Shown here one piece after another: positions 8,564 to 42,882 of a DNA stretch of 64,000 nucleotides. The DNA lies in assembly GCA_025617745.1 (NCBI GenBank), contig CM046854.1, positions 56,446,258-56,510,257 of the forward strand. Reading direction: 5' to 3'. Every line of letters begins with the position of its first letter. Position 1 is the stretch's first letter. This DNA comes from Heliocidaris erythrogramma (taxonomy: Eukaryota; Echinodermata; Echinoidea; Camarodonta; Echinometridae). The notes beneath the pieces were generated by a model that saw nothing but the letters and a program-made list of their open reading frames with translations, was not told the DNA's origin and made no database searches. Both the position numbers and the translations under genes were made by a program.

Positions 8564-8605
8564 CCTTCCTCTTGGGACATGCCCCCCATTTGAATCTGTG
8601 CTGGT

Positions 8606-8700: not shown

Positions 8701-8763
8701 GTCCCACCCTCCTACCCCACTCCTTGCCTAGCAACATGTCAAAGTTTGTCTGAGGCTGCTCGT

Positions 8764-8947: not shown

Positions 8948-8950
8948 GTA

Positions 8951-10297: not shown

Positions 10298-12483
10298 GAG
10301 TTTTTCTTCCCTCCCTTCCACTAATCTCACTTATAAGGGCGTCAGCCCAGTGAGTGTGTTGGAGACCTCTGTGTTTCGCTCGCCTACCAGCGAGTCAAAC
10401 ACGATGGTCAGGGGAGGTAAGGGCGTCAGTCTGTCGGCTCGCTCTGGTATTTTTGTACCGGGAGCGTCGAGCAAGACAGGCTTTATAGGTAAGTTAGGTG
10501 TTCATAAGTCTTCGGACCGAACACCCGTCATTAGCAATTCTAGCTCCCTCCAACTCACGACCACCGCGTCTGCAGTTGGGGGGCGGTAGCTAGTATTACC
10601 GGGTCCTCTCGACCCCCGACCACCGTCGGGAGCCTGGAGGGGGCATTAACTGGTAAGACTGCTAAGCGGTCAGCTAATGATGTTACTGGGTCTTGTCGAC
10701 CCCCGACCACCGTTGGGGTGCCTAGCGAGATTTCACCCAGTGTTACTGGCTTCCCCCGACATCCGACCACCGTCGGTGTGTCTGGGGGAATTACAGCCGG
10801 TAACGCAAATCCGCATCCCGCTAAGAAGACCTCCTCCTCGAGCAGGTTCTCGCAGCGGAAGACTGCTGGTTCCCGCCAGCCACTGACCAACGTCAGTGCT
10901 CCGGGTGCTATTTCCAGCAGTGCTGCAATGCAGCAGCCCGTCCACCCCCCGGCAGTCAATGCGAATCGGGGCTCTGGTCGGGGAAGCACAGTCCCTAGAG
11001 TTGCGGCCGAATTGCTTCTCCCCACTGGGGAGCCCGGCCCGGACAATTTGGTTGCTTCTAAACGGCCTTCTATTACGGTGGCTCACACCCCCGCTAAGAA
11101 GCTTAAAGCCAAGAAGGGTAAATCCAAGGATAAACCCAAGTCGGGTAAGAAGGCTCAGCCCTCTCTTCCCCCGACTCTCAATCTGAGTTGCTCAGATTAA
11201 TGAGACTCTTTGCTGAGCAGCATGGTTGGGATACTAATCCCCCGACGCTGCCGGCTACTGAGACGGGTTCTCCCCAGTCAGTTGTCACTGTGATGGAGGA
11301 TGTTCCCGAGTCGGACCCCGGTGTTTTCCCGGTCTCCGATATTCATGAGAACCTGGGACAATTTTGTCCGAATGCGGTATCTCGACCTACTCCTCCCGTG
11401 CCTGCGGCTCTCGGAGCCCCGCCGGGGGAGGAGTCTGTCACTGGTCCGTGGGCATATCCACCCCCATGGGATTTTTTCCACCGGACTACTTCTCCCGAAT
11501 TTGATTCTGTCTCGCAGATTTCTACCCCGTCTGTTTCAGAATCTCAGGCCGGCTACGACCCCCAGCCTTGTCGGGCTATGGCGGCAGACGCCAAGGCCCT
11601 GTTAGAGAAGTATATGCCAGAAATTTTTCCCCAAGTCCAGTCGGACAGTGATCAGCCATCGCTGTTATTCAGACAGCATGGCCCGTCTCCTGGTATTCCT
11701 CTTACAGAGGACTTCAAACAGGAGTATGGGGATAGGGAGGCACTCGCCGATGCGGGTCGGGCTACCCGACGTCCCTTTGGTAGTGCCTTCTGTTTCTATC
11801 GGGATGATACCCAGGGCTTCTTTTCAGCCAAGGGTTTATCCCAGGAAATTATGGGTATGGGACAACGTTTGAATATCAATTTCAAGTCTCAGTCCTATAG
11901 ATCCGCCGAGAAGCCCCTAGTGAACTTTGAAACCAAAGTCAGGTCGGGCTTAAGGCTTTCGGCGTACCTGGGTTCACTGTTACGCCTTCGGGCCATTTAA
12001 GTTGAACTGAATTTGACCGAGGGGGACTCCAATTTGTTGGATGAACTCCTGCTTTTGTTAGCTGGACTTCAGTGGTCTCAGCTCTCATCAGCGGCGATTG
12101 ACATTATGCATCAACGCCGCAAGTTGGCGCTCTCCACACTGGGAGTGCTAGAGAAAGACATCCCGCCTCTCTTGCGGGGTATCCCTTCCTCTCATCCCAA
12201 ACTCTTTGGGGGCCAGTTTAACGAGGTCTTCCTCAAAGAGATAGAGGGTCGCAAACAGGCAAAGGAGATGGCCAGACAATTCTTGCCCACTCAGCCTGCT
12301 CGGTCCTTTCCGAAGTCTAAGTCGGTCTCGACAGGCGCTAACCGCTCAAATCGTCGAGTGACTGTGACTATCCCTCGGGTTGAGACCCCTACCCTGGGCA
12401 ACCGTGGTAGAGGCTCGGCGAGAGGAAGAGGGGGGCGTAAGACCGCCGCCAAGGGCCCGGTCAGGCCCAAGTCGGCCTTTTGA
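10298..12483 (+). pseudogene. gag: DIRS-b gag fragment
   Basis: Truncated at the N-terminus: it begins within the Ser/Thr-rich region, YKGVSPVSVLETSV. It lacks the 17-bp duplication and the T deletion that break DIRS-a gag. It has its own faults: a missing G near 10580 ('ggggggcgg'), a C-run deletion near 11171, and a substitution at about 11997 making an in-frame TAA in 'ctrcgggcc atttaa' context. The RG-rich C-terminus and stop match DIRS-a. The two copies broke independently, so each can be used to recognise faults in the other. Confidence 0.8.
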
Positions 12484-13213
12484 TACCTTACCCCGAGTGC
12501 TTGTGGACAGTGTAGGCGGGCGGCTCCGGAGATTCCTCCCAGTTTGGGAGGCAATCTCCGGCGACGGCTTTTACATAGATCTGATAAAGCCGATTCCAAA
12601 CGGCGCCATCAGAATCCGCCCGCCTCCAATGTCCGCCCTTTTCCAGCAGCACATCTCCTCAGAGATCGCCACGCTGCTGGGAAAGGGCGCTGTAGAAAGG
12701 GTGAGAGATCATCCTCATCTCTGTCTCTCCCCAATTTTTGTCATTCCCAAGCGCTCGGGAAGTTTACGTATGATTCTAAACATGAAAAGAATCAACAGGT
12801 TTATACCTCCAGTGCATTTTCGCATGGAGACCTTGAGATCGAGGGAGATCGCAAGGTCTCCATGCGACTAGGTATGGTTAGTCATGTACTTTCACATTCC
12901 CATTCACTCTCTGTCGAGAAATTTGCTGGGATTCGCGTTCCTGGGCGAAACGTTTCGATTTCGTGCCCTACCCTTCGGGCTGTGGCCGGCCCCTTGAGTC
13001 TTTACCTGAATAGTGTCGGCCCTGGCCGCGTTTCTACGGAATCGCGGCCTCCGATTATTCGTCTATCTAGACGATTGGCTCCTAGTTGCAAACTCAGAGT
13101 CCCTCCTGTTGGATCAGTTATGCCTTTTACTGCGACTAACGCAAGACTTAGGCTTTCTGATAAACTGGGAAAAATCGGAATTATCTCCCACACGTACCCC
13201 GGTGTACTTTGGT
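12484..13213 (+). pseudogene. DIRS-b reverse transcriptase remnant
   Basis: Contains the RT N-terminus (GAIRIRPPPMSALFQQHISS), a rearranged centre at 12836-12885 that destroys the first catalytic block, and the YLDDWLL/FLINWEKSEL block at about 13050-13190. It then joins directly to the methyltransferase-like C-terminal region through the 893-bp deletion. RNase H is absent. Not functional. Confidence 0.85.
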
Positions 13214-14486
13214 ACGCTTTTCCCCCCATTCCTCTGATCCCTCAGGTCTTGAGGAAGGTCAAGGTGGACGGGGCTGGGCTCTTGTTGATAGCCCCACTTT
13301 GGCCAGCGAGATATTGGTTTCCAGACCTGCTGAGTCTCCTGGCCGGCCAGCCGTTTCCCCTTCCTCTCAGGGAGGATTTGATAATTCAACCCCTCTCGGG
13401 GATTGTTCATCAACGCCCAGCGGTCCTCCACTTGACTGCCTGGCCGTTGTTGGGGAAGACGCCAGAAACTCGGGGCTCTCCGAGAGGGCCTCCCAGTTTG
13501 TAATGAGAAGCCGTAGAGACTCCACTAGAGATCTCTACAACTCTCATCTAGGGGCCTTCTTTTCTTGGTGCGAGAATAAGGGTGTCTCACCACGTGAAGC
13601 CCCTATTGGTGTTATTGCCAATTTTTTGATCTCCCTTTTCGATAAGGGTAGATCGATTTCAACCATACGTGGCTATCGTTCGGCTATTGCCGCCGTCCAC
13701 GTTGGTTTTGCTGATGGTTCGGGAGTCTCCAACTCCCCTCTTTTGGCTAGGTTGACTCGCTCCTTCTTCTTGCAGCGTCCATCAACTCGTAGCCTGACTC
13801 CTTCTTGGAGTCTACCCAACGTCCTTGATGTGCTTGCGAAGCCACCTTTTGAACCTTTGGGTAAAGCGTCCCTTCACCAATTAATGGTCAAGACGCTGTT
13901 TTTAGTTGCTATTGCTTCTGCACAGAGGAGGAGTACTCTTCATGCTCTGTGTATCACACCGGGTCACATCCGTTGGGAGAACCATGGTGTGCGACTTATA
14001 CCCAAGCCCTCCTTTATTGCCAAAAATCAGACTGCTTCCTCTGGACCAGTTGAGATTTTTCTTAGACCGCTGTCGGACCATTCCTCGGTGCAGGAGGATA
14101 AGGTCTGGTGTCCGGTGAGGGCCTTGAAATGGTATTTAGATAGGACTAAGACTCTTCGTAAGAGTGATCAGCTTTTTGTCATCACTCGAGAGCCCTTTTC
14201 CCCCGCTTCCAGAGAATCCATTTCTAGATGGATAGTCGAAGCGATCCAGGCAGCTGGGCCGGAGACCCTATTGAGTGATGGGAAGCCCCGTGCTCACGAT
14301 ACCAGGGGCATCAGTGCCTCTTGGCCTCTTCTCCAAGGGGTGCCCCTAGTGGACATTATGAGGGCAGCCTACTGGCGCTCCTCCACGTCCTTCACATCTT
14401 TTTATTTAAAAGATGTTCTGTCAGTTGAAGAGTCTTTTTCTAACAAGACGTTGCAAGCTGCAACGTCATCCTTGGGTTCCTGTTGA
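13210..14486 (+). CDS. DIRS-b tyrosine recombinase
   Basis: The open frame from the deletion junction to the stop at 14484-14486 retains the complete recombinase: GRSISTIRGYRSAI in the core-binding half, AQRRSTLHAL, AHDTRGISASW, AYWRSS and SFYLKDV. It differs from DIRS-a by scattered substitutions and one extra codon near the C-terminus (VLSVEES against VLSEES). Whether it is translated is doubtful, because the element lacks its left end and the original overlap context. Its intact frame beside a ruined RT may reflect relaxed decay or possible selection on the recombinase. Confidence 0.82.
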
Positions 14487-14529
14487 CCTTCCTCTTGGGA
14501 CATGCCCCCCATTTGAATCTGTGCTGGTC

Positions 14530-20905: not shown

Positions 20906-21094
20906 CCCTTACAAAAAATGTCCTGTGGTAATACCACAGGACTGTACCACAGCACTATACCACAGAATGTACCACAGGAACGGTCCTGTGGTAACGTCCC
21001 AATTTACCACAGGAATACCACAGGAATGGCTTAATATGTGAAACGGTTACCACAGAAGGGATTAGTATGTGGTATTAGATACCATAGAATTACC

Positions 21095-21270
21095 ACAGAC
21101 TACCACACACCAGTTACCACACAGACTACCACACACCAGTTACCACACAGATTACCACACACCAGTTACCACACAGATTACCACACACCGGTTACCACAC
21201 AGATTACCACACACCAGTTACCACACAGAATTACCACACCGGTTACCACACAGAATTACCACACAGATTA
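21095..21270. repeat. Tandem array of 'accacacaccagttaccac'-type units
   Basis: About six head-to-tail copies of a 23-24-bp unit alternating 'taccacacaccagt' and 'taccacacagatt'. Spacing is regular but no unique spacers exist, so it is a minisatellite, not a CRISPR. Confidence 0.85.
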
Positions 21271-22270
21271 CCGCCTATGATGTACATGCATATCATTAAA
21301 TATTCCTGTCATATTTTGGGTGTGTAACACAAATATCACAGCCAGCCGTTTACACACAATCATCATAGTACACTGTACATGTAAACTACCACAGGTGTAC
21401 CTGTGGTTACATGTATTCCTGTGGTATTTTGGTGTTGACAATGTGTACCACAGGAATACAACAGGACCACAAGAATACACACCACAGTCATCTACTTGCA
21501 TTACCACACAAATATATGATACAGTACCACAGGAATGCAACAGGACCACAAGAATACATAACCAAGGAGATTTAGTTAAAATCTCTTTGACATACAGTAA
21601 CACAATCATCTACTTATATTACCACACAAATACATGATAAAGTACGACAGGTGTACTGTGGTAACAGATATTCATGTAGTATTTCGGATGTTAACAATAT
21701 GTACAACAGAAATACAACATCACAAGAATACCACAACTAGCAGTTGACATTACCACACAAGTATATGGTGTGGTAATATGTATCCATGTGGTATTTTGGA
21801 TGTACCACAGGAGCACAAAAAGACCACAAGAATACAACAGCCACCAGTTGACATTATCACACAATATATGCTAAGGTACCACAGGTGTACCTATGGTAAC
21901 CCTGTGTCAGCAAATATTCCTGTGGTATTTCGGATGTTAACATGTACCACAGGAATACAAGAGCACCACAGGAATACCACAGCTAGCAGGTGACATTACC
22001 ACATGCACAAGTATATTGTGTGGCAACTTGTATTCATGTGGTATTTCGGATGTACCACATGAGTACAACAGGATCACAAGAATACCACAGCCACCAGTTG
22101 ACATTACCACACAAGTATATGGTGTGGTAATATGTATCCATGTGGTATTTTGGATGTACCACAGGAGCACAAAAAGACCACAAGAATACAACAGCCACCA
22201 GTTGACATTATCACACAATTATATGCTAAGGTACCACAGGTGTACCTGTGGTAACCCTGTGTCAGCAAAT

Positions 22271-24463: not shown

Positions 24464-24963
24464 NNNNNNNNNNNNNNNNNNNNNNNNNNNNNNNNNNNNN
24501 NNNNNNNNNNNNNNNNNNNNNNNNNNNNNNNNNNNNNNNNNNNNNNNNNNNNNNNNNNNNNNNNNNNNNNNNNNNNNNNNNNNNNNNNNNNNNNNNNNNN
24601 NNNNNNNNNNNNNNNNNNNNNNNNNNNNNNNNNNNNNNNNNNNNNNNNNNNNNNNNNNNNNNNNNNNNNNNNNNNNNNNNNNNNNNNNNNNNNNNNNNNN
24701 NNNNNNNNNNNNNNNNNNNNNNNNNNNNNNNNNNNNNNNNNNNNNNNNNNNNNNNNNNNNNNNNNNNNNNNNNNNNNNNNNNNNNNNNNNNNNNNNNNNN
24801 NNNNNNNNNNNNNNNNNNNNNNNNNNNNNNNNNNNNNNNNNNNNNNNNNNNNNNNNNNNNNNNNNNNNNNNNNNNNNNNNNNNNNNNNNNNNNNNNNNNN
24901 NNNNNNNNNNNNNNNNNNNNNNNNNNNNNNNNNNNNNNNNNNNNNNNNNNNNNNNNNNNNNNN
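24464..24963. other. Assembly gap, 500 N
   Basis: Exactly 500 N, a conventional placeholder for a gap of unknown size. It lies in a tandem array: by comparison with 25913 onward, the repeat unit interrupted here would have begun about 255 bp before 24964. The array may extend into the gap. Confidence 0.99.
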
Positions 24964-25872
24964 CATCCCATCTTGAACAACCCACATGCACACAGAAAAG
25001 CAGATTCCTAGCTCTTTCAGTTTTTTTTATAAAAAATCATTTGTTGTCTCTTGGACCCCCCCCCCCCTTTACGGGGGCAATAACTCGAAAACGGATAGGT
25101 AAATCTTTTTGAAATTCGACACAGTCATGAGACCTGATAAGAAGAGTTGACAGTAACAATGTGAAGTTCACAACGACATTATGACGTCATCTAGGCTTCA
25201 TTTAGTGAATTTTTGGTGAAAAAAATGCCCTTTTCGGACCTCTAACTTCAGTTTGCGTGGTGCTAGAGACTTGGGACTTGATTCAGATGATAGAGCAAAA
25301 TATTCTACACAAAAAAGGCTTGTGTAGCTTTAACGTTTTAACGGACATTTTCAGGGTGAAAATGGTTTTCAAAGATAAAAGTGCCCATTTTGCCATAGAC
25401 ACACACGTTGTAGGTATTATAGTTAAATTTACTTTCGTCAAAACGACCTTTCCTTTTCCGCTTACTTTTTGTTACCACGAAATCTCGAAAACTGTCCAGT
25501 CAATTTTCATGAAATTTCCGTCAGTCATCAGGCCCTATGAGATCAAGCTCGGGTATCTTTTTCAAGGTCCTCAGGTCATCATTGTCGTCATCCAGGCGCC
25601 ATGTTGTGAAAATCAACTCATGGTCATATCTTGGTAACGGAAAGTCATTTCTTATTCATATATGGCATGATTGAAGCTAATACTACACAATCCGTCAATT
25701 TCACAGACTTAGACGCGGGCGTACGCTTACGTTCGCGCGAGAAGTGCCCCCACAACAATCAAATATGCCCACTCCGATAACTCCTAAACAAGACGTCAAT
25801 CTTTCTCAATCTTGCCACAATCATTCCATCTTCACCAACATCATGCCACCCAAAAAGCAGATTCGTAGCTCA

Positions 25873-25912
<40 letters not shown>
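24964..25912 (+). repeat. Satellite base unit 1 (without inserted element)
   Basis: Matches 26168 onward almost base for base, then runs 'agctcaattaa' straight into a 37-T tract ending at 25912. In the next two units the same point carries a 2.09-kb insertion, so this unit preserves the pre-insertion state. The base period is about 1.2 kb. A frame of about 126 codons at 25257-25637 recurs in the other copies but has no recognisable domain. Confidence 0.88.
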
Positions 25913-25915
<3 letters not shown>

Positions 25916-27083
25916 TGTCCACTGTTATCGTGTCCATCTTTTCCTTAATAGCTCCTCCATCCTGCCATCTACAATGAAAAAAAAGGTTCAGATTTGGAGG
26001 AAATTTGGGACCAATTGACTTCCAACTTGAAGATTCTTCACATTTCCGCTCATTTTCCTCCCATTGACAAATGAAAAGCGGAAAAAACGGCAAATTCCCT
26101 CCTTATTTCAGTCAAAACCACCACTCCTAAACAAGACGGCCAATTCCTTCTGAATCTTTCCACAATCATCCCATCTTGAACAACCCACATGCACACAGAA
26201 AAGCAGATTCCTAGCTCTTTCAGTTTTTTTTATAAAAAATCATTTGTTGTCTCTTGGACCCCCCCCCCCCCCCCTTTACGGGGCAATAACTCGAAAACGG
26301 ATAGGTAAATCTTTTTGAAATTCGACACAGTCATGAGACCTGATAAGAAGAGTTGACAGTAACAATGTGAAGTTCACAACGACATTATGACGTCATCTAG
26401 GCTTCATTTAGTGAATTTTTGGTGAAAAAATGCCCTTTTCGGACCTCTAACTTCAGTTTGCGTGGTGCTAGAGACTTGGGACTTGATTCAGATGATAGAG
26501 CAAAATATTCTACACAAAAAAGGCTTGTGTAGCTTTAACGTTTTAACGGACATTTTCAGGGTGAAAATGGTTTTCAAAGATAAAAGTGCCCATTTTGCCA
26601 TAGACACACACGTTGTAGGTATTATAGTTAAATTTACTTTCGTCAAAACGACCTTTCCTTTTCCGCTTACTTTTTGTTACCACGAAATCTCGAAAACTGT
26701 CCAGTCAATTTTCATGAAATTTCCGTCAGTCATCAGGCCCTATGAGATCAAGCTCGGGTATCTTTTTCAAGGTCCTCAGGTCATCATTGTCGTCATCCAG
26801 GCGCCATGTTGTGAAAATCAACTCATGGTCATATCTTGGTAACGGAAAGTCATTTCTTATTCATATATGGCATGATTGAAGCTAATATCAATCCGGTCAA
26901 TTTCACAGACTTAAACGCGGGCGTACGCTTACGTTCGCGCGAAAGTGCCCCCACAACAATCAAATATGCCCACTCCGATAACTCCCTAAACAAGACCGTC
27001 AATCTTTCTCAATCTTGCCACAATCATTCCATCTTCACCAAACATCATGCACACCAAAAAGCAGATTCGTAGCTCAATTAATT

Positions 27084-29168
27084 AGGTGATCTGTCGTAAT
27101 CGACAGATCACCTCTTAATTTCGTCAAGATTTTTCTTCTTTATTATTATTATTATTTTTTATTTATTTTTATTTTTTCGCCCATTTTCTTGTTACCATGA
27201 TTCCTCAAAAATTTCATTCTCAATTTTCTTCAAATTTTCGTCACTTATCAGACTGGTCAATGTCAAGATGTGGCATCTCATTCAAGGTCATCAGGTTATC
27301 ATGACGTCATCAAGACGCCATTTTGTAAATTTACAAGATCGATTATATCTTCATAATCGATCATCAAAAATCAACTATATTTACATCACATAAACTTCAC
27401 ATGACGGGTCATCAGGTCATGTCCTCACAGGTCATCTAGAGGTCAGGACGTACGCGTACGCGCGCGTCAAAATTTTAAAATGCTCAAAATCACGTAGGAT
27501 CAAGTCTGCACACGTTTCAGGTCAGTTTGAGCATTTCAAAAATGTCCGTGCGTAAGCGTCCGCGCGCGCGTTTTACGCGCGCACAAATCGTAAATAACGT
27601 TAGAAACGCTGTTTTTTTTATTGATTTGCAATCCTGACACTTTTCTTCATCATTTCCATCAATTTGAATCAATTTCAATCAATAATAAGGTCGTACGGGC
27701 GCGTCAAAGTTCGAAATCCGTGCGCGCGTCTATGGCGAAAATAACGTAAAAACGTGCAAAAACATGCCTCTACAAAATTCATTGTAGCTCGTTAGATAGT
27801 CCGTTGACCCCCAAATTTTTTGTCATCATCAGGTAGGGTATGAATCATAGATTTCATTTCATGTATCATTTCATCCATATAAACATTATGACGTCATCAA
27901 AATGGCACCAGAAGTCAAAATTTCCATTTTTCATGTTTTGACGTCATCACATTTATGCAAATTTGGCTCTAGATTCGTAATTATTGGTCGTTTTTCTCCC
28001 AAATTTTGATATGTTATAGCTGCAACAATTCTCTACGAGACATCTTGCCACCATTATTCATTTTGATGACGTCATCACACTGAAATCTTCAATTAAAGAC
28101 GACATGTCAAATTTTTCCCTATTTGCGTGTTATGTCTATGGAAGATGATTTTTTTCGAATCATGAATCTACATGACATCGTTCTCTGAGCAGTATCTCAG
28201 TTATTTTTGGTCTATTTCCTTCCAGATTTTAATATGTTGTAGCTGAGACTATAAGCTTTTATTAGTAAGCCCTCCAATTTTTGATCAGATGTCGGGATCA
28301 TGCCCAATTTTCAGTACCAAATGGGATTTGAGAATCACGTTTTTCGTTTACGTGTTATCTCTATGGGAAATATTTTGGTCTATCGGTAAAGCACATGACT
28401 ACCATGGTCAAGGTACCTGGTTCGATCCCCGGGGCCGATTTTTTTTTTTTTTTTTTTTTGCTTCTTTTTACTTGTCATTTTACCATCCTCTACGACTATT
28501 ATAACATAAACAATCACAAACCAAGTAATAAAATGCCTTATTTTGCATGTTATGTCTATTGCAAAGTGCTGTGCAGTGGTTTATGTATATCCCTATGGAA
28601 AATCTGTTTCACTGACGTGTATTAAAGCTATCCTACAATATCATTAGTCCTATTAGATATCACAATTTCTCAAATTGGCTTAGTCAATTATCTTAATTAT
28701 CTTATTGTGACGTCATCTAGACGCCATTTTCTACAAATCAACTTATGGTCGTATCTTCATAACGAAATGTGATTTCTCGTTCATATTTGGCATGGTTAAC
28801 GTCACTGTCATTGCAGTCATGATCCTTACCATTATCCCCATCATTATCATCATTATCATTATCATCATTATATCATCAATCATCTTCAAAATCACCAACA
28901 CCATAATCATCATGAATATCATTATCATCACCATCATTATATTATCATCATCATCATCACCATTATCATCATCACCGTAATCTTTTTACAATGACCGTTT
29001 CACACATTTTGCTACATTCCTGTCCTCAAGAAGCATCTCCATTCATGGCATTCTTGACTTCCTATCTTCAGTTTAGCATTTCCCCATTATTATGATCATC
29101 CTGATTACAATCATGATCGTACAAAGTGAAAGACAGATCACCTAATTCGTCATGACGAATTAAACTCT

Positions 29169-29170
<2 letters not shown>
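27084..29170 (+). mobile_element. Helentron/Helitron2-like non-autonomous element, subfamily A, copy 1
   Basis: The 5' terminus is a hairpin (AGGTGATCTGTCG, short loop, complement). Near the 3' end GACAGATCACCT repeats the inverted 5' terminus, but about 40 bp inside the end. A second hairpin (AATTCGTC/GACGAATT) and terminal CTAG follow. The empty site shows insertion between T and T with no duplication. Internal order: AGGTCA/TGACGTCA-rich segment, CpG-rich segment, tRNA-like module at 28376-28459, (ATC)n microsatellite at about 28810-28980. No Rep/helicase is encoded. The family call rests on termini only. Confidence 0.68.
28376..28459 (+). ncRNA. tRNA-like Pol III module (box A, box B, T tract) in the Helentron-like element
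   Basis: TGGTCTATCGG resembles box A (28376-28386) and GGTTCGATCCC box B (28419-28429), about 32 bp apart, followed by 'ccggggccga' and about 20 T (28439-28459), which would terminate Pol III. A tRNA-like D arm and T arm are readable, but no complete acceptor stem. Equivalent modules lie at about 31663, 34566, 36650, 38574, 40504 and 42298. It is tRNA-derived, not a functional tRNA. Transcription is inferred. Confidence 0.6.
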
Positions 29171-29201
<31 letters not shown>

Positions 29202-29204
<3 letters not shown>

Positions 29205-30424
29205 TGTCGACTGTTGTCGTGTCCATCTTTTCCTTAATAGCTCCTCCATCCTGCCATCTACAATGAAAAAAAAGGTTCAGATTTGGAGGAAATTTGGGAC
29301 CAATTGACTTCCAACTTGAAGATTCTTCACATTTCCGCTCATTTTCCTCCCATTGACAAATGAAAAGCGGAAAAAACGGCAAATTCCCTCCTTATTTCAG
29401 TCAAAACCACCACTCCTAAACAAGACGGCCAATCCTTCTGAATCTTTCCACAATCATCCCATCTTGAACAACCCACATGCACACAGAAAAGCAGATTCCT
29501 AGCTCTTTCAGTTTTTTTTATAAAAAATCATTTGTTGTCTCTTGACCCCCCCCCCCCCCCTTTACGGGGGCAATAACTCGAAAACGGATAGGTAAATCTT
29601 TTTGAAATTCGACACAGTCATGAGACCTGATAAGAAGAGTTGACAGTAACAATGTGAAGTTCACAACGTCATTATGACGTCATCTAGGCTTCATTTAGTG
29701 AATTTTTGGTGAAAAAATGCCCTTTTCGGACCTCTAACTTCAGTTTGCGTGGTGCTAGAGACTTGGGACTTGATTCAGATGATAGAGCAAAATATTCTAC
29801 ACAAAAAAGGCTTGTGTAGCTTTAACGTTTTAACGGACATTTTCAGGGTGAAAATGGTTTTCAAAGATAAAAGTGCCCATTTTGCCATAGACACACACGT
29901 TGTAGGTATTATAGTTAAATTTACTTTCGTCAAAACGACCTTTCCTTTTCCGCTTACTTTTTGTTACCACGAAATCTCGAAAACTGTCCAGTCAATTTTC
30001 ATGAAATTTCCTTCAGTCATCAGGCCCTATGAGATCAAGCTCGGGTATCTTTTTCAAGGTCCTCAGGTCATCATTGTCGTCATCCAGGCGCCATGTTGTG
30101 AAAATCAACTCATGGTCATATCTTCGTAACGGAAAGTCATTTCTTATTCATATATGGCATGATTGAAGCTAATACCAATCCCGTCAATTTCACAGACTTA
30201 GACGCGGGCGTACGCTTACGTTCGCGCGAAAGTGCCCCCACAACAATCAAATATGCCCACTCCGATAACTCCTAAACAAGACCGTCAATCTTTCTCAATC
30301 TTGCCACAATCATTCCATCTTCACCAAACATCATGCACACCAAAAAGCAGATTCGTAGCTCAATTAATTAGGTGATCTGTCGTAATCGACAGATCACCTC
30401 TTAATTTCGTCAAGATTTTTCTTC

Positions 30425-30455
<31 letters not shown>

Positions 30456-32455
30456 TTATTTTTCGCCCATTTTCTTGTTACCATGATTCCTCAAAAATTT
30501 CATTCTCAATTTTCTTCAAATTTTCGTCACTTATCAGACTGGTCAATGTCAAGATGTGGCATCTCATTCAAGGTCATCAGGTTATCATGACGTCATCAAG
30601 ACGCCATTTTGTAAATTTACAAGATCGATTATATCTTCATAATCGATCATCAAAATCAACTATATTTACATCACATAAACTTCACATGACGGGTCATCAG
30701 GTCATGTCCTCACAGGTCATCTAGAGGTCAGGACGTACGCGTACGCGCGCGTCAAATTTTAAAATGCTCAAAATCACGTAGGATCAAGTCTGCACACGTT
30801 TCAGGTCAGTTTGAGCATTTCAAAAATGTCCGTGCGTAAGCGTCCGCGCGCGCGTTTTACGCGCGCACAAATCGTAAATAACGTTAGAACGCTGTTTTTT
30901 TTATTGATTTGCAATCCTGACACTTTTCTTCATCATTTCCATCAATTTGAATCAATTTCAATCAATAATAAGGTCGTACGGGCGCGTCAAAGTTCGAAAT
31001 CCGTGCGCGCGTCTATGGCGAAAATAACGTAAAAACGTGCAAAAACATGCCTCTACAAAATTCATTGTAGCTCGTTAGATAGTCCGTTGACCCCCAAATT
31101 TTTTGTCATCATCAGGTAGGGTATGAATCATAGATTTCATTTCATGTATCATTTCATCCATATAAACATTATGACGTCATCAAAATGGCACCAGAAGTCA
31201 AAATTTCCATTTTTCATGTTTTGACGTCATCACATTTATGCAAATTTGGCTCTAGATTCGTAATTATTGGTCGTTTTTCTCCCAAATTTTGATATGTTAT
31301 AGCTGCAACAATTCTCTACGAGACATCTTGCCACCATTATTCATTTTGATGACGTCATCACACTGAAATCTTCAATTAAAGACGACATGTCAAAATTTTT
31401 CCCTATTTGCGTGTTATGTCTATGGAAGATGATTTTTTTTCGAATCATGAATCTACATGACATCGTTCTCTGAGCAGTATCTCAGTTATTTTTGGTCTAT
31501 TTCCTTCCAGATTTTAATATGTTGTAGCTGAGACTATAAGCTTTTATTAGTAAGCCCTCCAATTTTTGATCAGATGTCGGGATCATGCCCAATTTTTCAG
31601 TACCAAATGGGATTTGAGAATCACGTTTTTTCGTTTACGTGTTATCTCTATGGGAAATATTTTGGTCTATCGGTAAAGCACATGACTACCATGGTCAAGG
31701 TACCTGGTTCGATCCCCGGGGCCGATTTTTTTTTTTTTTTTTTTTGCTTCTTTTTACTTGTCATTTTACCATCCTCTACGACTATTATAACATAAACAAT
31801 CACAAACCAAGTAATAAAATGCCTTATTTTGCATGTTATGTCTATTGCAAAGTGCTGTGCAGTGGTTTATGTATATCCCTATGGAAAATCTGTTTCACTG
31901 ACGTGTATTAAAGCTATCCTACAATATCATTAGTCCTATTAGATATCACAATTTCTCAAAATTGGCTTAGTCAATTATCTTAATTATCTTATTGTGACGT
32001 CATCTAGACGCCATTTTCTACAAATCAACTTATGGTCGTATCTTCATAACGAAATGTGATTTCTCGTTCATATTTGGCATGGTTAACGTCACTGTCATTG
32101 CAGTCATGATCCTTACCATTATCCCCATCATTATCATCATTATCATTATCATCATTATATCATCAATCATCTTCAAAATCACCAACACCATAATCATCAT
32201 GAATATCATTATCATCACCATCATTATATTATCATCATCATCATCACCATTATCATCATCACCGTAATCTTTTTACAATGACCGTTTCACACATTTTGCT
32301 ACATTCCTGTCCTCAAGAAGCATCTCCATTCATGGCATTCTTGACTTCCTATCTTCAGTTTAGCATTTCCCCATTATTATGATCATCCTGATTACAATCA
32401 TGATCGTACAAAGTGAAAGACAGATCACCTAATTCGTCATGACGAATTAAACTCT

Positions 32456-32488
<33 letters not shown>
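29202..32488 (+). repeat. Composite tandem unit, copy 2
   Basis: About 3.29 kb, nearly identical to 25913-29201 through base unit, insertion and T tract. Differences are a few single-base changes and homopolymer lengths. It represents a recent tandem duplication or possibly an assembly duplication. Confidence 0.9.
30370..32457 (+). mobile_element. Helentron-like element, subfamily A, copy 2
   Basis: Same termini, same insertion point and the same internal order as 27084-29170. It was copied with the composite unit and does not represent an independent insertion. Confidence 0.7.
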
Positions 32489-32491
<3 letters not shown>

Positions 32492-33199
32492 TGTCCACTG
32501 TTATCGTGTCCATCTTTTCCTTAATAGCTCCTCCATCCTGCCATCTACAATGAAAAAAAAGGTTCAGATTTGGAGGAAATTTGGGACCAATTGACTTCCA
32601 ACTTGAAGATTCTTCACATTTCCGCTCATTTTCCTCCCATTGACAAATGAAAAGCGGAAAAAACGGCAAATTCCCTCCTTATTTCAGTCAAAACCACCAC
32701 TCCTAAACAAGACGGCCAATCCTTCTGAATCTTTCCACAATCATCCCATCTTGAACAACCCACATGCACACAGAAAAGCAGATTCCTAGCTCTTTCAGTT
32801 TTTTTTATAAAAAATCATTTGTTGTCTCTTGGACCCCCCCCCCCCCTTTACGGGGGCAATAACTCGAAAACGGATAGGTAAATCTTTTTGAAATTCGACA
32901 CAGTCATGAGACCTGATAAGAAGAGTTGACAGTAACAATGTGAAGTTCACAACGACATTATGACGTCATCTAGGCTTCATTTAGTGAATTTTTGGTGAAA
33001 AAATGCCCTTTTCGGACCTCTAACTTCAGTTTGCGTGGTGCTAGAGACTTGGGACTTGATTCAGATGATAGAGCAAAATATTCTACACAAAAAAGGCTTG
33101 TGTAGCTTTAACGTTTTAACGGACATTTTCAGGGTGAAAATGGTTTTCAAAGATAAAAGTGCCCATTTTGCCATAGACACACACGTTGTAGGTATTATT
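32489..33199 (+). repeat. Base unit, third copy, truncated
   Basis: Identical start ('aagtgtccactgttatcg') but broken after 'cacgttgtaggtattatt' at 33199, where a Helentron-like 5' end begins. The rest of the base unit ('agttaaatttactttcg' onward) is not found later in the array, so it was lost. Confidence 0.88.
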
Positions 33200-33274
33200 A
33201 GGTGGTCTGTCGTAGTCGACAGACCACCTCTTAATTTCGTCAGAATTTTCTTTCTTTATTATTTATTTATTATT
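33200..33274 (+). mobile_element. Helentron-like 5' end fragment (subfamily B)
   Basis: 75 bp with the terminal hairpin AGGTGGTCTGTCG/CGACAGACCACCT and 'cttaatttcgtcagaa', cut off at a TT where the next element starts. Its continuation is not identified. Confidence 0.7.
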
Positions 33275-35367
33275 AGGTGATCTGTCGTACATCGACAGAT
33301 CACCTCTTAATTTCGTCAAGATTTTTCTTCTTTATTATTTATTTATTCTTTATTTATTTTATTTTTCGCCCCTTTTCTTGTTACCATGATTCCTCAAAAA
33401 GTTCATTCTCAATTTTCTTCAAATTTTCGTCACTTATCAGACTTGTTAATGTCAAGATGTGGCATCTTATTCAAGGTCATCAGGTTATCATGACGTCATC
33501 AAGACGCCATTTTGTAAATTTACAAGATCGATTATATCTTCATAATCGATCATCAAAAATCAACTATATTTACATCACATAAACTTCACATGACGGGTCA
33601 TCAGGTCATGTCCTCACAGGTCATCTAGAGGTCAGGACGTACGCGTACGCGCGCGTCAAAATTTTAAAATGCTCAAAATCACGTAGGATCAAGTCTGCAC
33701 ACGTTTCAGGTCAGTTTGAGCATTTCAAAAATGTCCGTGCGTAAGCGTCCGCGCGCGCGTTTACGCGCGCACAAATCGTAAATAACGTTAGAACGCTGTT
33801 TTTTTATTGATTTTGCAATCCTGACACTTTTCTTCATCATTTCCATCAATTTGAATCAATTTCAATCAATAATAAGGTCGTACGGGCGCGTCAAAGTTCG
33901 AAATCCGTGCGCGCGTCTATGGCGAAAATAACGTAAAAACGTGCAAAAACATGCCTCTACAAATTCATTGTAGCTCGTTAGATAGTCCGTTGACCCCCAA
34001 ATTTTTTGTCATCATCAGGTAGGGTATGAATCATAGATTTCATTTCATGTATCATTTCATCCATATAAACATTATGACGTCATCAAAATGGCACCAGAAG
34101 TCAAAATTTCCATTTTTCATGTTTTGACGTCATCACATTTATGCAAATTTGGCTCTAGATTCGTAATTATTGGTCGTTTTTCGCCCAGATTTTCATATGT
34201 TATAGCTGCAACAATTCTCTACTAGAGACATCTTGCCACCATTATTCATTTTGATGACGTCATCACACTGAAATCTTCAATTAAAGACGACATGTCAAAT
34301 TTTTCCCTATTTGCGTGTTATGTCTATGGAAGATGATTTTTTTTCGAATCATGAATCTACATGACATCGTTCTCTGAGCAGTATCTCAGTTATTTTTGGT
34401 CTATTTCCTTCCAGATTTTAATATGTTGTAGCTGAGACTATAAGCTTTTATTAGTAAGCCCTCCAATTTTTGATCAGATGTCGGGATCATGCCCAATTTT
34501 TCAGTACCAAATGGGATTTGAGAATCACGTTTTTCGTTTACGTGTTATCTCTATGGGAAATATTTTGGTCTATCGGTAAAGCACATGACTACCATGGTCA
34601 AGGTACCTGGTTCGATCCCCGGGGCCGATTTTTTTTTTTTTTTTTTTTTGCTTCTTTTTACTTGTCATTTTACCATCCTCTACGACTATTATAACATAAA
34701 CAATCACAAACCAAGTAATAAAATGCCTTATTTTGCATGTTATGTCTATTGCAAAGTGCTGTGCAGTGGTTTATGTATATCCCTATGGAAAATCTGTTTC
34801 ACTGACGTGTATTAAAGCTATCCTACAATATCATTAGTCCTATTAGATATCACAATTTCTCAAAATTGGCTTAGTCAATTATCTTAATTATCTTATTGTG
34901 ACGTCATCTAGACGCCATTTTCTACAAATCAACTTATGGTCGTATCTTCATAACGAAATGTGATTTCTCGTTCATATTTGGCATGGTTAACGTCACTGTC
35001 ATTGCAGTCATGATCCTTACCATTATCCCCATCATTATCATCATTATCATTATCATCATTATATCATCAATCATCTTCAAAATCACCAACACCATAATCA
35101 TCATGAATATCATTATCATCACCATCATTATATTATCATCTTCATCATCATCACCATTATCATCATCACCGTAATCTTTTTACAATGACCGTTTCACACA
35201 TTTTGCTACATTCCTGTCCTCAAGAAGCATCTCCATTCATGGCATTCTTGACTTCCTATCTTCAGTTTAGCATTTCCCCATTATTATGATCATCCTGATT
35301 ACAATCATGATCGTACAAAGTGAAAGACAGATCACCTAATTCGTCCTCATGACGAATTAAACTCTAG
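33275..35367 (+). mobile_element. Helentron-like element, subfamily A, copy 3
   Basis: Starts 'aggtgatctgtcgtacatcg' and ends 'gacgaattaaactctag'. It is close to the other A copies internally, including the tRNA-like module and the (ATC)n tract. Here it is preceded by a B-type 5' fragment instead of the base unit. Confidence 0.68.
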
Positions 35368-35369
35368 TT

Positions 35370-37230
35370 AGGTGGTCTGTCGTAGTCGACAGACCACCTC
35401 TTAATTTCGTCAGAATTTTCTTTCTTTATTATTTGTCTTTTATTTTTCCACCACTTTTTTGTGGACACAATTTCTCAAAATCAACTCGATCAATTTTCTT
35501 GAAATTTTTGTCAGTTATCAGGCCATATCAGATCAAGTGCCCCTATCTTTTTCAAGGTCATCGGGTCGTCATCATGACGTCATCAAGGCGCCATTTTGTG
35601 AAATCACATTATCAATCATATCTTCGTAACGAGTCATCAAAAATAAACCATATTTGACACACATGAACTTCAGGTCACGGTCAACATAAAATGTCATTAA
35701 AATCCGTGCGCGCATCATGACGCGCACGTACGCGCGCGTCAAAATTTAAAAATGCTCCAAATCAGTTTTTAATCAAATTAGGGTATGGTTCAGGACATTT
35801 TACGCATTTTAAAAATTTCCTGTCCGTGCGCGTCCGCGCGCGCGTTATGTGCGCGCACAGCGCGTAGAGAACGTAAAAACGCCATTTTTTCGCATGTTTC
35901 ATCTTCCTGATACTATTCTTGACAATTTCCAACTATTTACAGTCATTCTCGACCTTCCATAATGTCGTACGCGCGCATCAAACTTTCAAATTCGTGCGCA
36001 CGTCAATGGGCATTCTAATGTAAAAAGTGGTACAAACATGCCTATCTAGAATTCGCCATAGCTCCTCAGAATGCACGGAACCCCCCAATTCCTTTACATA
36101 TTCTGAAAGCCTGGGAGTTGTAGATTTGAATTCATGTAGAATTTTTGCCGATCTCATGTTCTAACGTCATCATATTTGCATATGAACTCAAAAAAGTGAT
36201 TTTGAAAAAATTATGTCATCATTTTTGTATTCTTTTGATAATATTTCAGTAATAGGTGGTCGATTTTCTTCCAAATTTTGATATGTTATAGCTGAGACAA
36301 TTCTCTACAACATGAGTGCTCATTATTATTCATTTGGATGACGTCATCACACTGAAATTTCAATTAAAGACGACATGTCAGAATTGTCCCTATTTGCGTG
36401 TTATGTCTATGGAAGATGATTTTTTTTTCGAATCATGAATCTACATGACATCGTTCTCTGAGCTGTATCTCAGTTATTTTTGGTCTATTTCCTTCCAGAT
36501 TTTAATATGTTGTAGCTGAGACTATAAGCTTTCATTAAGGTGGTCTCCAAATTTTGATCAGATGTCGGGATCATGCCCTATTTTGAACTACCAAATGGGA
36601 TTCGAGAATCCCGTTTTTCGTTTACGTGTTATCTCTATGGAAATATTTTAGTCTATCGGTGAAGCACATGACTACCATGGTCAAGGTACCTGGTTCGATC
36701 CCGGGGCCGATTTTTTTTTTTTTTTTTTTTTGCTTCTTTTTGCCTGTCATTTTACAATCCTCTTCGACTATTGTAACATAAAAAATCACTAATCATGTAA
36801 TAAACTGCCTTATTTTCCGTATTATGTCTATTAGAAAGTAGTGTGCAGTAGTTTATGTACAACCCTATGGCAAATTGTGATTTCCTGTCCTGTATTAGAG
36901 CTATGGTGTTAATCTCCCAAGTATCCTGTATCATCATCATTATTATCATCACCATCATGATCATCATCGCTACTATTATATCATCGCCATCATCATTATG
37001 TCATTATAATCATCATAATCACCGTTATCATCACCATAATCATTTTACAATGACCGATACACATTTTGCTACATTCCTGTCCTCAGGAAGCATCTCCATT
37101 CATGGCATTCTTGACATCCTGTCTTCTGTTTAGTATTTCCCCATTAATATGATCATCCTGATTACAATCATGATCGTGCCAATTTAAGGACAGACCACCT
37201 AATTCGTCTTCGTGACGAATTCAAGTCTAG
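35370..37230 (+). mobile_element. Helentron-like element, subfamily B, copy 1
   Basis: Complete: 5' hairpin AGGTGGTCTGTCG, 3' GACAGACCACCT, then hairpin and 'tcaagtctag'. It is about 1.86 kb. The same internal plan as A but clearly diverged; it lacks part of the A sequence between the CpG-rich segment and the (ATC)n tract. Box A reads 'tagtctatcgg'. Confidence 0.68.
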
Positions 37231-37232
37231 TT

Positions 37233-37289
37233 AGGTGGTCTGTCGGTGTCGACAGACCACCTCTTAATTTCGTCAGAATTTTCTTTATT
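37233..37289 (+). mobile_element. Helentron-like 5' end fragment X (subfamily B)
   Basis: 57 bp: terminal hairpin with loop 'gtgt', then 'cttaatttcgtcagaa' and 'tttctttatt', interrupted at TT by the next complete element. Its missing body is probably 42883-44663. Confidence 0.65.
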
Positions 37290-39156
37290 AGGTGGTCTGT
37301 CGTAGTCGACAGACCACCTCTTAATTTCGTCAGAATTTTCTTTATTTATTTCTTTATTATTTATTTTTATTTTTCCACCACTTTCTTGTGAACACAATAT
37401 CTCAAAATCAACTCGATCAATTTTCTTCAAATTTTTGTCAATTATCAGGCCATATCAGATCAAGTTCCCCTATCTTTTTCAAGGTCATCAGGTCATCGTG
37501 ACGTCATCAAGGCGCCATTTTGTGAAATCACATTATCAATCATATCTTCATAACGAGTCATCAAAAATGAACCATATTTGACATACATTAACTTCAGGTC
37601 ACGGGTCAACATAAAATGTCATCAAAATCCGTGCACGCATCATGACGCGCACGTACGCGCGCGTCAAAATTTAAAAATGCTCCAAATCACTTTTTAATCA
37701 AATTAGGGTATTGTTCAGGACATTTTAAGCATTTTAAAATTTCCTGTCCGTGCGCGTCCGCGCGCCCGTTATGCGCGCGCACAGCGCGTAGAGAACGTAA
37801 AAATGCCATTTTTTCGCATGTTTCATCTTCCTGATACTATTCTTGACAATTTCCAACTATTTACAGTCATTCTCGACCTTCCATAATGTCGTACGCGCAC
37901 ATCAAACTTTCAAATTCGTGCGCACGTCAATGGGAATTCTAATGTAAAAAGTGGTAAAAACATGCCTATCTAGAATTCGCCATAGCTCCTCAGAATGCAC
38001 GGAAACTCCCCAATTCCCTTACATATTCTGAAAGCCTGGGAGATGTAGATTTGAATTCATGTAGAATTTTTGCCGATCTCATGTTCTAACGTCATCATAT
38101 TTGCATATGAACTCAAAAAAATGATTTTGAAAAAATGACGTCATCATTTTTGTATTCATTTGCTAATATTTCAGTAATAGGTAATCGATTTTCTTCCAAA
38201 TTTTGATATGTTATAGCTCAGACAATTCTCTACCAGATCAGTGTCCACCATTTTTCATTTTGATGACGTCATCATACTGAAATTTTCAATTAAAGATGCC
38301 ATGTCAGAATGTTCCCTATTTGCGTGTTATGTCTATGGAAGATGATTTTTTTTCGAATCATGAATCTACATGACATCGTTCTCTGAGCAGTATCTCAGTT
38401 ATTTTTGGTCTATTTCCTTCCAGATTTTAATATGTTGTAGCTGAGACTATAAGCTTTCATTAGTAAGCCCTCCAATTTTTGATCAGATGTCGGGATCATG
38501 CCCAATTTTTCAGTACAAAATGTGATTTGAGAATCCCGTTTTCGTTTACGTGTTATCTCTATGGGAAATATTCTGGTCTATCGGTAAAGCACATGACTAC
38601 CATGGTCAAGGTACCTGGTTCGATCCCCGGGGCCGATTTTTTATTTTTTATTTTTTGCTTCTTTTTGCCTGTCATTTTACCATCCTCTTCGACTATTGTA
38701 CCATAAAAAATCACAAATCATGTAATAAACTGCCTTATTTTCCATATTATGTCCATTAGAAAGTAGTGTACAGTAGTTTGTGTACAACCCTATGGAAATT
38801 GTGATTTCCTCTCCTGTATTAGAGCTATGGGGTTAATCTCCCAAGTATCCTGTATCATCATCATTATTACCATCACCGTCATGATCATCATCGCTATTAT
38901 TATATCATCGCCATCATCATTATATCATTATAATCATCATAATCACCATTATCATCATCACCATAATCGTTTTACAATGACCGTTACACATTTTGCTACA
39001 TTCCTGTCCTCAGGAAGCATCTCCATTCATGGCATTCTTGACATCCTGTCTTCTGTTTAGTATTTCCCCATTAATATGATCATCCTGATTACAATCATGA
39101 TCGTGCAATTTAAGGACAGACCACCTAATTCGTCCTCATGACGAATTAAATTCTAG
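37290..39156 (+). mobile_element. Helentron-like element Y, subfamily B
   Basis: Complete, about 1.87 kb, with both hairpins and 3' 'aattaaattctag'. Contains AGGTCATCAGGTCA at 37482-37495 followed by TGACGTCA at about 37499. The tRNA-like module is at about 38574, with a T tract interrupted by A. Confidence 0.68.
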
Positions 39157-39164
39157 TTATTATT

Positions 39165-39221
39165 AGGTGGTCTGTCGGTATCGACAGATCACCTCTTAAT
39201 TTCGTCAGAATTTTCTTTATT
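39165..39221 (+). mobile_element. Helentron-like 5' end fragment Z (subfamily B)
   Basis: 57 bp, cut at the same internal position as fragment X. Hairpin arms here are AGGTGGTCTGTCG and CGACAGATCACCT, one G-T mismatch. The body is probably 41085-42882. Confidence 0.65.
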
Positions 39222-41084
39222 AGGTGGTCTGTCGTAGTCGACAGACCACCTCTTAATTTCGTCAGAATTTTCTTTATTTATTTCTTTATTTATTTTTATT
39301 TTTCCACCACTTTCTTGTGAACACAATATCTCAAAATCAACTCGATCAATTTTCTTCAAATTTTTGTCAATTATCAGGCCATATCAGATCAAGTTCCCCC
39401 ATCTTTTTCAAGGTCATCAGGTCATCGTGACGTCATCCAGGCGCCATTTTGTGAAATCACATTATCAATCATATCTTCATAACGAGTCATCAAAAATAAA
39501 CCATATTTGACACACATGAACTTCAGGTCAAGGGTCAACATAAAATGTCATTAAAATCCGTGCGCGCCTCATGTCGCGCACGTACGCGCGCGTCAAAATT
39601 TAAAAATGCTCCAAATCACTTTTTAATCAAATTAGGGTATGGTTCAGGACATTTTACGCATTTTAAAATTTCCTGTCCGTGCGCGTCCGCGCGCGCGTTA
39701 TGTGCGCGCACAGCGCGTAGAGAACGTAAAAACGCCATTTTTTCGCATGTTTCATCTTCCTGATACTATTCTTGACAATTTCCAACTATTTACAGTCATT
39801 CTCGACCTTCCATAATGTCGTACGCGCGCGTCAAACTTTCAAATTTGTGCGCACGTCAAAGGGCATTCTAATGCAAAAAGTGGTAAAAACATGCCCATCT
39901 AGAATTCGCCATAGCTCCTCAGAAGGGGCGGAAACCCCCCCATTTCTTTACATATTCTGAAAGCCTGTGAGTTGTAGATACGAATTCATGCAGAATTTTT
40001 GCCGATCTCATGTTCTAACGTCATCATATTTGCATATGAACTCAAAAAAGTGATTTTGAAGAAATTATGTCATCATTTTTGTATTCTTTTGATAATATTT
40101 CAGTAATAGTTGGTCAATTTTCTTCCAAATTTTGATATGTTTTAGCTGAGACAATTCTCTACAAGATCAGTAACCACAATTTTTCATTTTGATGACGTCA
40201 TCATAGTGAAAATTTCAATTAAAGATGCCATGTCAGAATGTTTCCTATTTGCGTGTTATGTCTATGGAAGATGACTTTTTTTCGAATCATGAATCTACAT
40301 GACATTGTTCTCTGAGCAGTATCTCAGTTATTATTGGTCTATTTCCTTCCAGATTTTAATATGTTGTAGCTGAGACTATAAGCTTTTATTAATAAGCCCT
40401 CAGATTTTTGATCAGATGTCGGGATCATGCCCAATTTTTCAGTACAAAATGGGATTTGAGAATCCCATTTTTCGTTTACGTGTTATCTCTATGGGAATTA
40501 TTTTGGTCTATCGGTAAAGCACATGACTACCATGGTCAAGGTACCTGGTTCGATCCCGGGGCCGATTTTTTTTTTTTTTTTTTTTTTTTTGCTTCTTTTT
40601 GCCTGTCATTTTACCATCCTCTTCGACTAGTATAACATAAAAAATCACAAATAATGTAATAAACTGCCTTATTTTCCGTATTATGTCTATTAGAAAGTAG
40701 TGTGCAGTAGTTTGTGTACAACCCTATGGAAATTGTGATTTCCTGTCCTGTATTAGATCAAAGGGGATAATCTGCCAAGTATCCTGTATCATCATCATTA
40801 TTATCGTCACCGTCATGATCATCATCGCTATTATATCATCGCCATCATATATCATTATAATCATCATAATCACCATTATCATCATCACCATAATCATTTT
40901 ACAATGACCGTTACACATTTTGCTACATTCCCGTCCTCAAGAAGCATCTCCATTCATGGCAGTCTTGACATCCTATCTTCAGTTTAGTATTTCCCCATTA
41001 TTATGATCATCCTGATTACAATGATGATCGTACAAATTGAAGGACAGACCACCTAATTCGTCCTCATGACGAATTAAATTCTAG
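39222..41084 (+). mobile_element. Helentron-like element W, subfamily B
   Basis: Complete, about 1.86 kb, both terminal hairpins present. The CpG-rich centre, tRNA-like module at about 40504 with about 26 T, and (ATC)n tract are as in Y. Confidence 0.68.
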
Positions 41085-42882
41085 TTTATTTTTATTTTTC
41101 CACCACTTTCTTGTTACCATGATTCCTCAATATCGGCCGAGTCAAATTTTATCAAAATCTCTACAGTCATGAGGACTTATAAGATCAAGGTCGGGTATCT
41201 ATTTCAAGGTCATCAGGTCATCGTGACGTCATCCAGGCGCCATTTTGTGAAATCACATTATCAATCATATCTTCATAACTAATCATCAAAAATGAACCAT
41301 ATTTGACATACATTAACTTCAGGTCAAGGGTCAACATAAAATGTCATTAAAATCCGTGCGCGCATCATGACGCGCACGTACGCGCGCGTCAAAATTTAAA
41401 AATGCTCAAAATCACTTTTTAATCAAATTAGAGTGTTGTTCAGGACATTTTAAGCATTTTAAATTTTTCTGTCCGTGCGCGTCCGTGCGCGCGTTATGTG
41501 CGCACACAGCGCGTGGAGAACGTAAAAACGCCGTTTTTTCGCATATTTTGTCTTCCTGACACTATTGTTGACAATTTCCAACTATTTACAGTCAATCTCG
41601 ACCTTCCATAATGTCGTACGCGCGCGTCAAACTTTCAAATTCGTGCGCGCGTCAATGGGCATTCTAATGTAAAAAGTGGTAAAAACATGCCTATCGAGAA
41701 TTCGCCATAGCTCCTCAGAAGGGGCGGAAACCCCCCAATTTCTTTACATATTCTGAAAGCCTGTGAGTTGTAGATATGAATTCATGTAGAATTTTTGCCG
41801 ATCTCATGTTCTAACGTCATCATATTTGCATATGAACTCAAAAAAATGATTTTGAAAAAATGACGTCATCATTTTTGTATTCATTTGCTAATATTTCAGT
41901 AATAGGTGATCGATTTTCTTCCAAATTTTGATATGTTATAGCTGAGACAATTCTCTACCAGATCAGTTTCTACCATTTTTCATTTTGATGACGTCATCAC
42001 AGTGAAATTTTCAATTAAAGATGCCATGTCAGAATGTTCCCTATTTGCGTGTTATGTCTATGGAAGATGATTTTTTTTCGAATCATGAATCTACATGACA
42101 TCGTTCTCTGAGCAGTATCTCAGTTATTTTTGGTCTATTTCCTTCCAGATTTTAATATGTTGTAGCTGAGACTATAAGCTTTTACAAGTGTGGTCTCCAA
42201 ATTTTGATCAGATGTCGGGATCATGCCCAATTTTTCAGTACAAAATGTGATTTGAGAATCCCGTTTTCGTTTACGTGTTATCTCTATGGGAAATTTTCTG
42301 GTCTATCGGTAAAGCACATGACTACCATGGTCAAGGTACCTGGTTCGATCCCCGGGGCCGATTTTTTTTTTTTTTTTTTTTGCTTCTTTTTGCCTGTCAT
42401 TTTACCATCCTCTTCGACTATTGTAACATAAAAAATCACAAATCATGTAATAAACTGCCTTATTTTCCGTATTATGTCTATTAGAAAGTAGTGTGCAGTA
42501 GTTTGTGTACAACCCTATGGAAATTGTGACTTCCTGTCCTGTATTAGAGCTATGGGGTTAATCTGCCAAGTATCCTGTATCGTCATCATTATTACCATCA
42601 CCGTCATGATGATCATCGCTATTATTATATCATCGTCATCATCATTATATCATTATAATCATCATAATCACCATTATCATCATCACCATAATCGTTTTAC
42701 AATGACCGTTACACATTTTGCTACATTCCTGTCCTCAGGAAGCATCTCCATTCATGGCATTCTTGACATCCTGTCTTCTGTTTAGTATTTCCCCATTAAT
42801 ATGATCATCCTGATTACAATCATGATCGTGCAAATTGAAGGACAGACCACCTAATTCGTCCTCATGACGAATTAAATTCTAG
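41085..42882 (+). mobile_element. Helentron-like element body, probably continuation of Z
   Basis: Begins directly after CTAG with 'tttatttttatttttccacc', a sequence normally about 60-75 bp inside a complete copy; the 5' hairpin is absent. The 3' end is complete. It fits the sequence expected after fragment Z if W inserted into Z. Confidence 0.62.

Follow-up and report, generated by a model that had tools for sequence, protein, structure and literature searches.

Empty and filled satellite units side by side around a non-autonomous Helentron of the sea urchin Heliocidaris erythrogramma

How did one satellite array come to contain, next to each other, a unit without an insert and two units with the same insert, and what kind of element is this insert? 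The question was raised by a stretch of 64,000 nucleotides from Heliocidaris erythrogramma (assembly GCA_025617745.1, contig CM046854.1, positions 56,446,258 to 56,510,257), which we call the window and by whose positions we number below. At 24964-33199, satellite units of 1.2 kb follow each other head to tail on the plus strand. Unit 1 (24964-25912), the left part of which is lost in an adjoining assembly gap of 500 N (24464-24963), is empty: it reads AGCTCAATTAA (AATTAA), then 35 T (25878-25912), then AAGTGTC at 25913, and this empty site lies 0.9 kb within continuous sequence. In unit 2, the part left of the insertion (25913-27083) ends with ...CAATTAATT and is followed by the insert AGGTGATC...CTAG at 27084-29170 (2,087 bp; copy E2), by 31 T (29171-29201) and by AAGTGTCG at 29202. 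Unit 3 (left part, 29202-30369) carries an insert at the identical place, AGGTGATC...CTAG at 30370-32457 (2,088 bp; copy E3), again followed by 31 T and by AAGTGTC at 32489; this T tract and a partial unit 4, which is cut at satellite position 713 (GGTATTAT), occupy 32458-33199. The paired empty and filled units are confirmed as a real observation. An earlier reading of the letters alone (the sequence-only reading) had described a unit 1 that runs straight into the T tract, a 2.09 kb insert ending with CTAG before that tract in units 2 and 3, and no target duplication, and direct reading bore all of this out: no duplication is visible at the paired sites, and the alignment of units 1-3 that it had proposed gave matching host flanks with few changes.

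The T tract was unbroken across the site in 38 of the 40 scored candidates (396 in all), unit 1 among them, and the two interrupted ones were the window's own filled units; the query was the empty unit, which biases this ratio to empty copies, and filled copies elsewhere are maybe under-counted. These unbroken copies lead us to regard the empty form of the satellite unit as the ancestral one.

The insert is a non-autonomous Helentron (HINE), a member not previously described of a known class, because its ends and hairpins match the HINE anatomy in the consulted part of the published description (PMC4067079). As described there, HINEs enter T-rich DNA without target duplication and with a variable number of flanking T, and they have subterminal inverted repeats of 12-15 bp, of which the 5' copy lies 2-4 nt inside the end and is palindromic or has an adjacent inverted copy (PMC4067079). 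E2 measures 2,087 bp as AGG..CTAG and probably spans 27082-29170 with two 5' T included. Its 5' hairpin (27084-27113) has a perfect 13-bp stem (-14.7 kcal/mol, z -8.4), the first 12 nt of which, AGGTGATCTGTC, form the 5' subterminal repeat, 2 nt from the element end if TT is counted as element. The 3' subterminal repeat GACAGATCACCT (29132-29143), an exact inverted copy of these 12 bp, begins 39 nt before the 3' end and stops 27 nt before it, in agreement with the approximate 38-60 bp of HINEs. The 3' palindrome AATTCGTCATGACGAATT (29144-29161) stands 9 nt before the end, within the HINE range of 8-35 bp; its folding gave z -2.8 and -3.2, and 4 and 2 of 200 shuffles folded equally well. The element closes with CTAG (29167-29170), which agrees with the CTRR of canonical Helitrons, and the canonical 5' TC is absent: E2 and E3 begin with (TT)AGGTG, as do the further ends inspected, which were collected with a motif that itself begins AGGTG. 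A T/ATT-rich microsatellite lies at 27130-27177, where a nested HINE sits in other copies, and neither E2 nor E3 has an ORF of at least 200 aa, so at this length both are non-coding like other HINEs.

HINEs and their paralogous empty sites are already in print, and with the HINE / DINE-1-like elements of that source (Thomas et al. 2014, PMC4067079, as far as consulted) the urchin family shares the subterminal inverted repeats, the 5' inverted repeat, the 3' palindrome, the microsatellite, the T-rich target without TSD, at least two T per end and the paralogous empty sites. It differs from them in its length of about 2.0-2.1 kb, in its frequent head-to-tail arrays and in a probable partner whose ORF is antisense to the ends. 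Searches of the element for tRNA genes gave none with ARAGORN and no tRNA at E 0.1 with Rfam, and the only Rfam hit, MIR841, reached 30.5 bits where the gathering score is 200 and was dismissed as a chance match. At 28376-28459, and at the matching place in the window's other HINE copies, the HINE bodies carry a segment like a tRNA-type Pol III promoter, with the B-box-like GGTTCGATCCC, and a T run after it. A different tRNA-like sequence occurs at 44092-44170, in the last HINE copy of the window.

The exact insertion point turned out to be less sharp than the sequence-only reading had it, which placed the insertion between T and T and both ends to the base. Pure T tracts in the fetched satellite loci contain 26 to 33 T (overlapping loci counted repeatedly) against 35 in unit 1, so several T in the tract can be assigned to either side, and the tract hides the element ends. 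The comparison at satellite position 713 shows more than AGG...CTAG: internal, empty units read GGTATTATAGTTAAATT, and units beside HINEs read GGTATTATT, AGGTG...CTAG and TAGTTAAATT, which leaves two T beyond the unchanged AGG...CTAG insertion. These two T probably belong to the element, either as TTAGGTG...CTAG between A and T or as one T at each end of an element that entered between T and A; alternatively, the T's were gained on insertion. As to the insertion between A and T of canonical Helitrons, the 713 site agrees with A^T no better than with T^A. These readings also fit the insertion site of E2 and E3, where TTAGGTG...CTAG between A/T and T...T between T/A do equally well in place of the claimed T and T. 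It had also been claimed that cut-and-paste superfamilies with TSD are excluded; the part that stands is that they do not fit, but the extra T's are indistinguishable from a duplication of T or TT. The 713 edges may not be independent events, and a joined-flank search for the paralogous empty site of one HINE insertion at C1:56.07 Mb gave none.

The recurrence of the element is no product of chance. The exact 32-nt 3' end has 548 copies in the 1.06 Gb genome and 0 in the reversed control, and it is followed by TT in 534 of the 548, which fits the HINE habit of a T-rich target with at least two T on each side and no target duplication, the 14 3' ends without TT being exceptions. A survey of the window and the fetched loci saw TT after 39 of 40 3' ends and before 30 of 30 5' ends; it left out flanks below 60 nt, its strict end motifs miss diverged ends, and copies of the same array are not independent in it. 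The HINE family looks young, because five copies at other loci (31 others aligned) show 0 substitutions relative to E2 along 1,650 bp. E2 and E3 themselves differ at 7 of the 2,083 positions aligned, have 9 gap columns besides, and show 0 substitutions in the last 1,650 bp.

For the origin of the three units, we regard it as very probable that a HINE inserted into one satellite unit and that the filled unit was then duplicated in tandem. By analogy with the mechanism of the family, a trans-acting Rep/helicase/endonuclease would copy the HINE as a single strand that starts at the 5' hairpin and stops at the 3' hairpin-CTAG, and this copy would be joined into T-rich DNA without target duplication; we infer the same rolling-circle chemistry for E2 and E3. 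One HINE copy would have landed in the T tract of a single 1.2 kb unit; the resulting filled unit of 3.29 kb would then have been duplicated in tandem, presumably by unequal exchange, to give one empty and two filled units.

The sequence-only reading treated the two filled sites as separate observations, and independent insertions of E2 and E3 into the same T tract would be conceivable, since T tracts are favoured as targets and E2 is as close to five copies elsewhere (0 substitutions) as to E3. But the E2 and E3 junctions are identical, and a 3-bp deletion is common to these two alone (0 of 31 other aligned copies), although the ATC-rich stretch around it is of a kind in which changes of length can arise repeatedly. 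Because of this private deletion, E2 and E3 most likely descend from one insertion whose filled unit was later duplicated, and two independent insertions appear improbable. Still less credible is that the empty site is secondary and arose when the element was precisely excised from unit 1. The empty and filled units are neighbours, as excision would have it, but 38 of the 40 copies scored with the empty unit as query, in arrays on several chromosomes, are unbroken, and because such tracts are common in other arrays, excision was rejected as the origin of the empty site. Excision is also not expected of copying rolling-circle elements. An assembly artefact, in which the array or unit 1 would be a collapsed or mis-joined repeat, is suggested by the 500-N gap beside unit 1 and by the near identity of the units, and the number of satellite units in the assembly could indeed be wrong; however, the sequence is continuous across the junctions and other arrays show empty tracts too, which makes an artefact very unlikely as the source of the pairing. 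Insertion into one unit followed by duplication of the filled unit thus stays the preferred account.

The Rep profile PF14214 had 103 matches, many of them in open frames of 3,000-4,200 aa. A HINE 5' end lies at C2:22817, and the adjoining 1.53 kb is 94% HINE; a HINE 3' end with the same 3' terminus lies at C2:51110, where the last 0.65 kb is 90% identical to a HINE subfamily. Within C2:22817-51110, the opposite strand encodes PIF1 and Exo_endo_phos and then Rep PF14214 at 35263, and the HINE end is 8.8 kb from the ORF. Rep, PIF1 and Exo_endo_phos together are given as the signature of Helentrons (PMC4067079, part consulted). This stretch of about 28 kb is the probable autonomous partner, with continuity across C2:34300-48999 presumed, and it would be the element that moves the HINE. 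Two sister loci, C2:320768 and C1:42521323, share a 1.9 kb 3' end with C2:51110; of the three comparisons, all made at this end, two gave 99.8% and the third, into which some flank entered, gave 99.2%. The left and right HINE parts at C2:22817-51110 contain a 161-bp direct repeat, 94% alike, and the HINE could have derived from the larger C2 element by deletion between these repeats. Provided that the partner is right, the endonuclease PF03372 in its ORF does not agree with Helitron2, which has a single Rep/helicase ORF and no endonuclease.

A second Helentron, at C21:9718000-9737599, has an open frame of 4,187 aa with Rep, PIF1 and Exo_endo_phos in the 1,361 aa scanned, and its coding part is 86% identical to that of the C2 one over 2.8 kb. 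As a candidate for the partner itself, it showed no HINE-type ends from 1.1 kb upstream to 5.9 kb downstream of this ORF, a reach below the 8.8 kb seen at C2. An ORF antisense to the element ends has been reported for FoHeli4 and FoHeli5 (PMC5148889), and the consulted part of this source on FoHeli of Fusarium oxysporum shows further features shared with the urchin family: self-insertion, a single 3' terminus that goes with several 5' termini, a transposase ORF that is reversed in some groups, and a TNAT^A preference, which fits the 713 site TTAT^A (PMC5148889). In contrast, the sequences and 3' ends differ, and comparable long arrays are without mention in that part of the source (PMC5148889).

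To the right of the satellite, at 33200-44663 on the plus strand, the window contains a head-to-tail HINE array with seven 5' hairpins (33200, 33275, 35370, 37233, 37290, 39165, 39222) and six 3' ends (35367, 37230, 39156, 41084, 42882, 44663), in which stacked 5' hairpins occur together with bodies without hairpin. Among 100 listed 3' ends of the 548, neighbours no more than 12 kb apart formed 62 pairs, every one of them on the same strand and 0 on opposite strands. When 40 3' ends were examined, the sequence beyond was the microsatellite and body of another copy in 14 cases, another 5' end at once in 11, a microsatellite and then another 5' end in 4, and other sequence in 11. Helitron self-insertion (PMC5148889) and tandem Helitrons ascribed to bypassed termination (PMC4067079) are both in print, in the parts consulted. 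The array of the window is likely to reflect self-insertion and tandem copying, both. A strict balance, in which each 5' hairpin has its 3' end, was discarded as a general rule, with 7:6 in the window, an unbalanced array at C1:42.48 Mb and 1:2 in a dimer at C1:74619796-74623918, which has one 5' hairpin and two 3' ends and misses the second hairpin. This dimer, the two unbalanced arrays and the published bypass of termination would suit rolling-circle read-through or unequal exchange as the only source of this and other arrays, with no nested self-insertion. But a complete nest at C1:47430250-47434523 has all four ends in the order hairpin, hairpin, CTAG, CTAG, and its inner HINE lies wholly in the microsatellite of the outer one, from which it differs by 24 mismatches (98.4% alike); moreover, 15 of 30 5' ends lie inside the 5' stub of another copy, besides the 14 3' ends that run into another microsatellite and body. 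Read-through or exchange alone is therefore doubtful, and the combination with self-insertion is preferred.

The HINEs also mark where satellite arrays stop. Each of the 20 outer satellite edges that were seen, which belong to 11 arrays, is a HINE end at satellite position 713. They were identified with fixed motifs at 713, which would miss edges at other positions, and by motif-free BLAST of all 20 satellite loci (identity at least 93%). The BLAST recovered 18 of these edges, each at 713 and next to a HINE end, and showed no outer edge at another position; the remaining two are the window's right edge (33199), which was read directly, and one edge of locus L051, which was found with the motif only. 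Besides 33199, the 713 edges come from loci L034-L042, L044, L049, L051 and L052, and six loci of the array at C14:0.13 Mb showed no edge. Since the HINEs at the edges belong to differing subfamilies, the idea of one ancestral HINE insertion at position 713 is weakened; the common position may reflect a hotspot, later exchange of neighbours, or whole satellite units inserted between tandem HINEs. In L051, a satellite unit is interrupted by 249 bp with inverted-looking ends (2052-2300). The satellite itself resembles the 5' part of a HINE, with 77% identity along about 200 bp.

As a tentative idea, to which we give rather low credence, HINEs could build and disperse the satellite, by strand-directed self-insertion into the microsatellite and then rolling-circle copying past an unused terminator. 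Self-insertion of an element into its own T/ATT-rich microsatellite would give head-to-tail nests, because the T-rich strand would accept the element in one orientation only. Copying from the 5' end of one HINE to the 3' end of its neighbour would carry the satellite between them, like a composite transposon, which would explain HINE ends at one satellite position despite differing subfamilies. Dispersal of satellites by HINEs is already in print for Cg_HINE of the Pacific oyster, which in the consulted part of that source shares with the urchin family a satellite dispersed along with HINEs, oligo-T sites and no TSD (PMC7492417). The oyster repeats, however, are 140-180 bp and lie inside one HINE, whereas the urchin units are 1.2 kb, lie between two HINE ends and are opened at the same position at 20 edges (PMC7492417). 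A literature search of titles, which does not prove absence, found none on satellites opened at one position between HINEs.

The kind of event at this locus is ordinary and its before-and-after view is clear; the architecture of the arrays is the interesting part. The origin and spread of dispersed satellite arrays are unsettled. One chromosome-scale assembly combines a Helentron family that looks young and has hundreds of copies, its probable autonomous partner, junctions of both the nested and the tandem kind, and satellite edges at one position. Because these occur together in one assembly, the models for tandem Helitron arrays (terminator bypass, self-insertion, unequal exchange) could be separated by counting complete junctions. 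Elsewhere in the window, further tandem repeats with periods of 357, 26 and 104 bp occur at 1-1103 and 21094-22225, and sequence repeated about 6-7 kb apart suggests two similar stretches with open frames at about 4000-14500. Inverted repeats based on GCGAGAATTTCGTATCG lie at 46697-46790, and an open frame with a reverse transcriptase domain (RVT_1) at 54100-55737.
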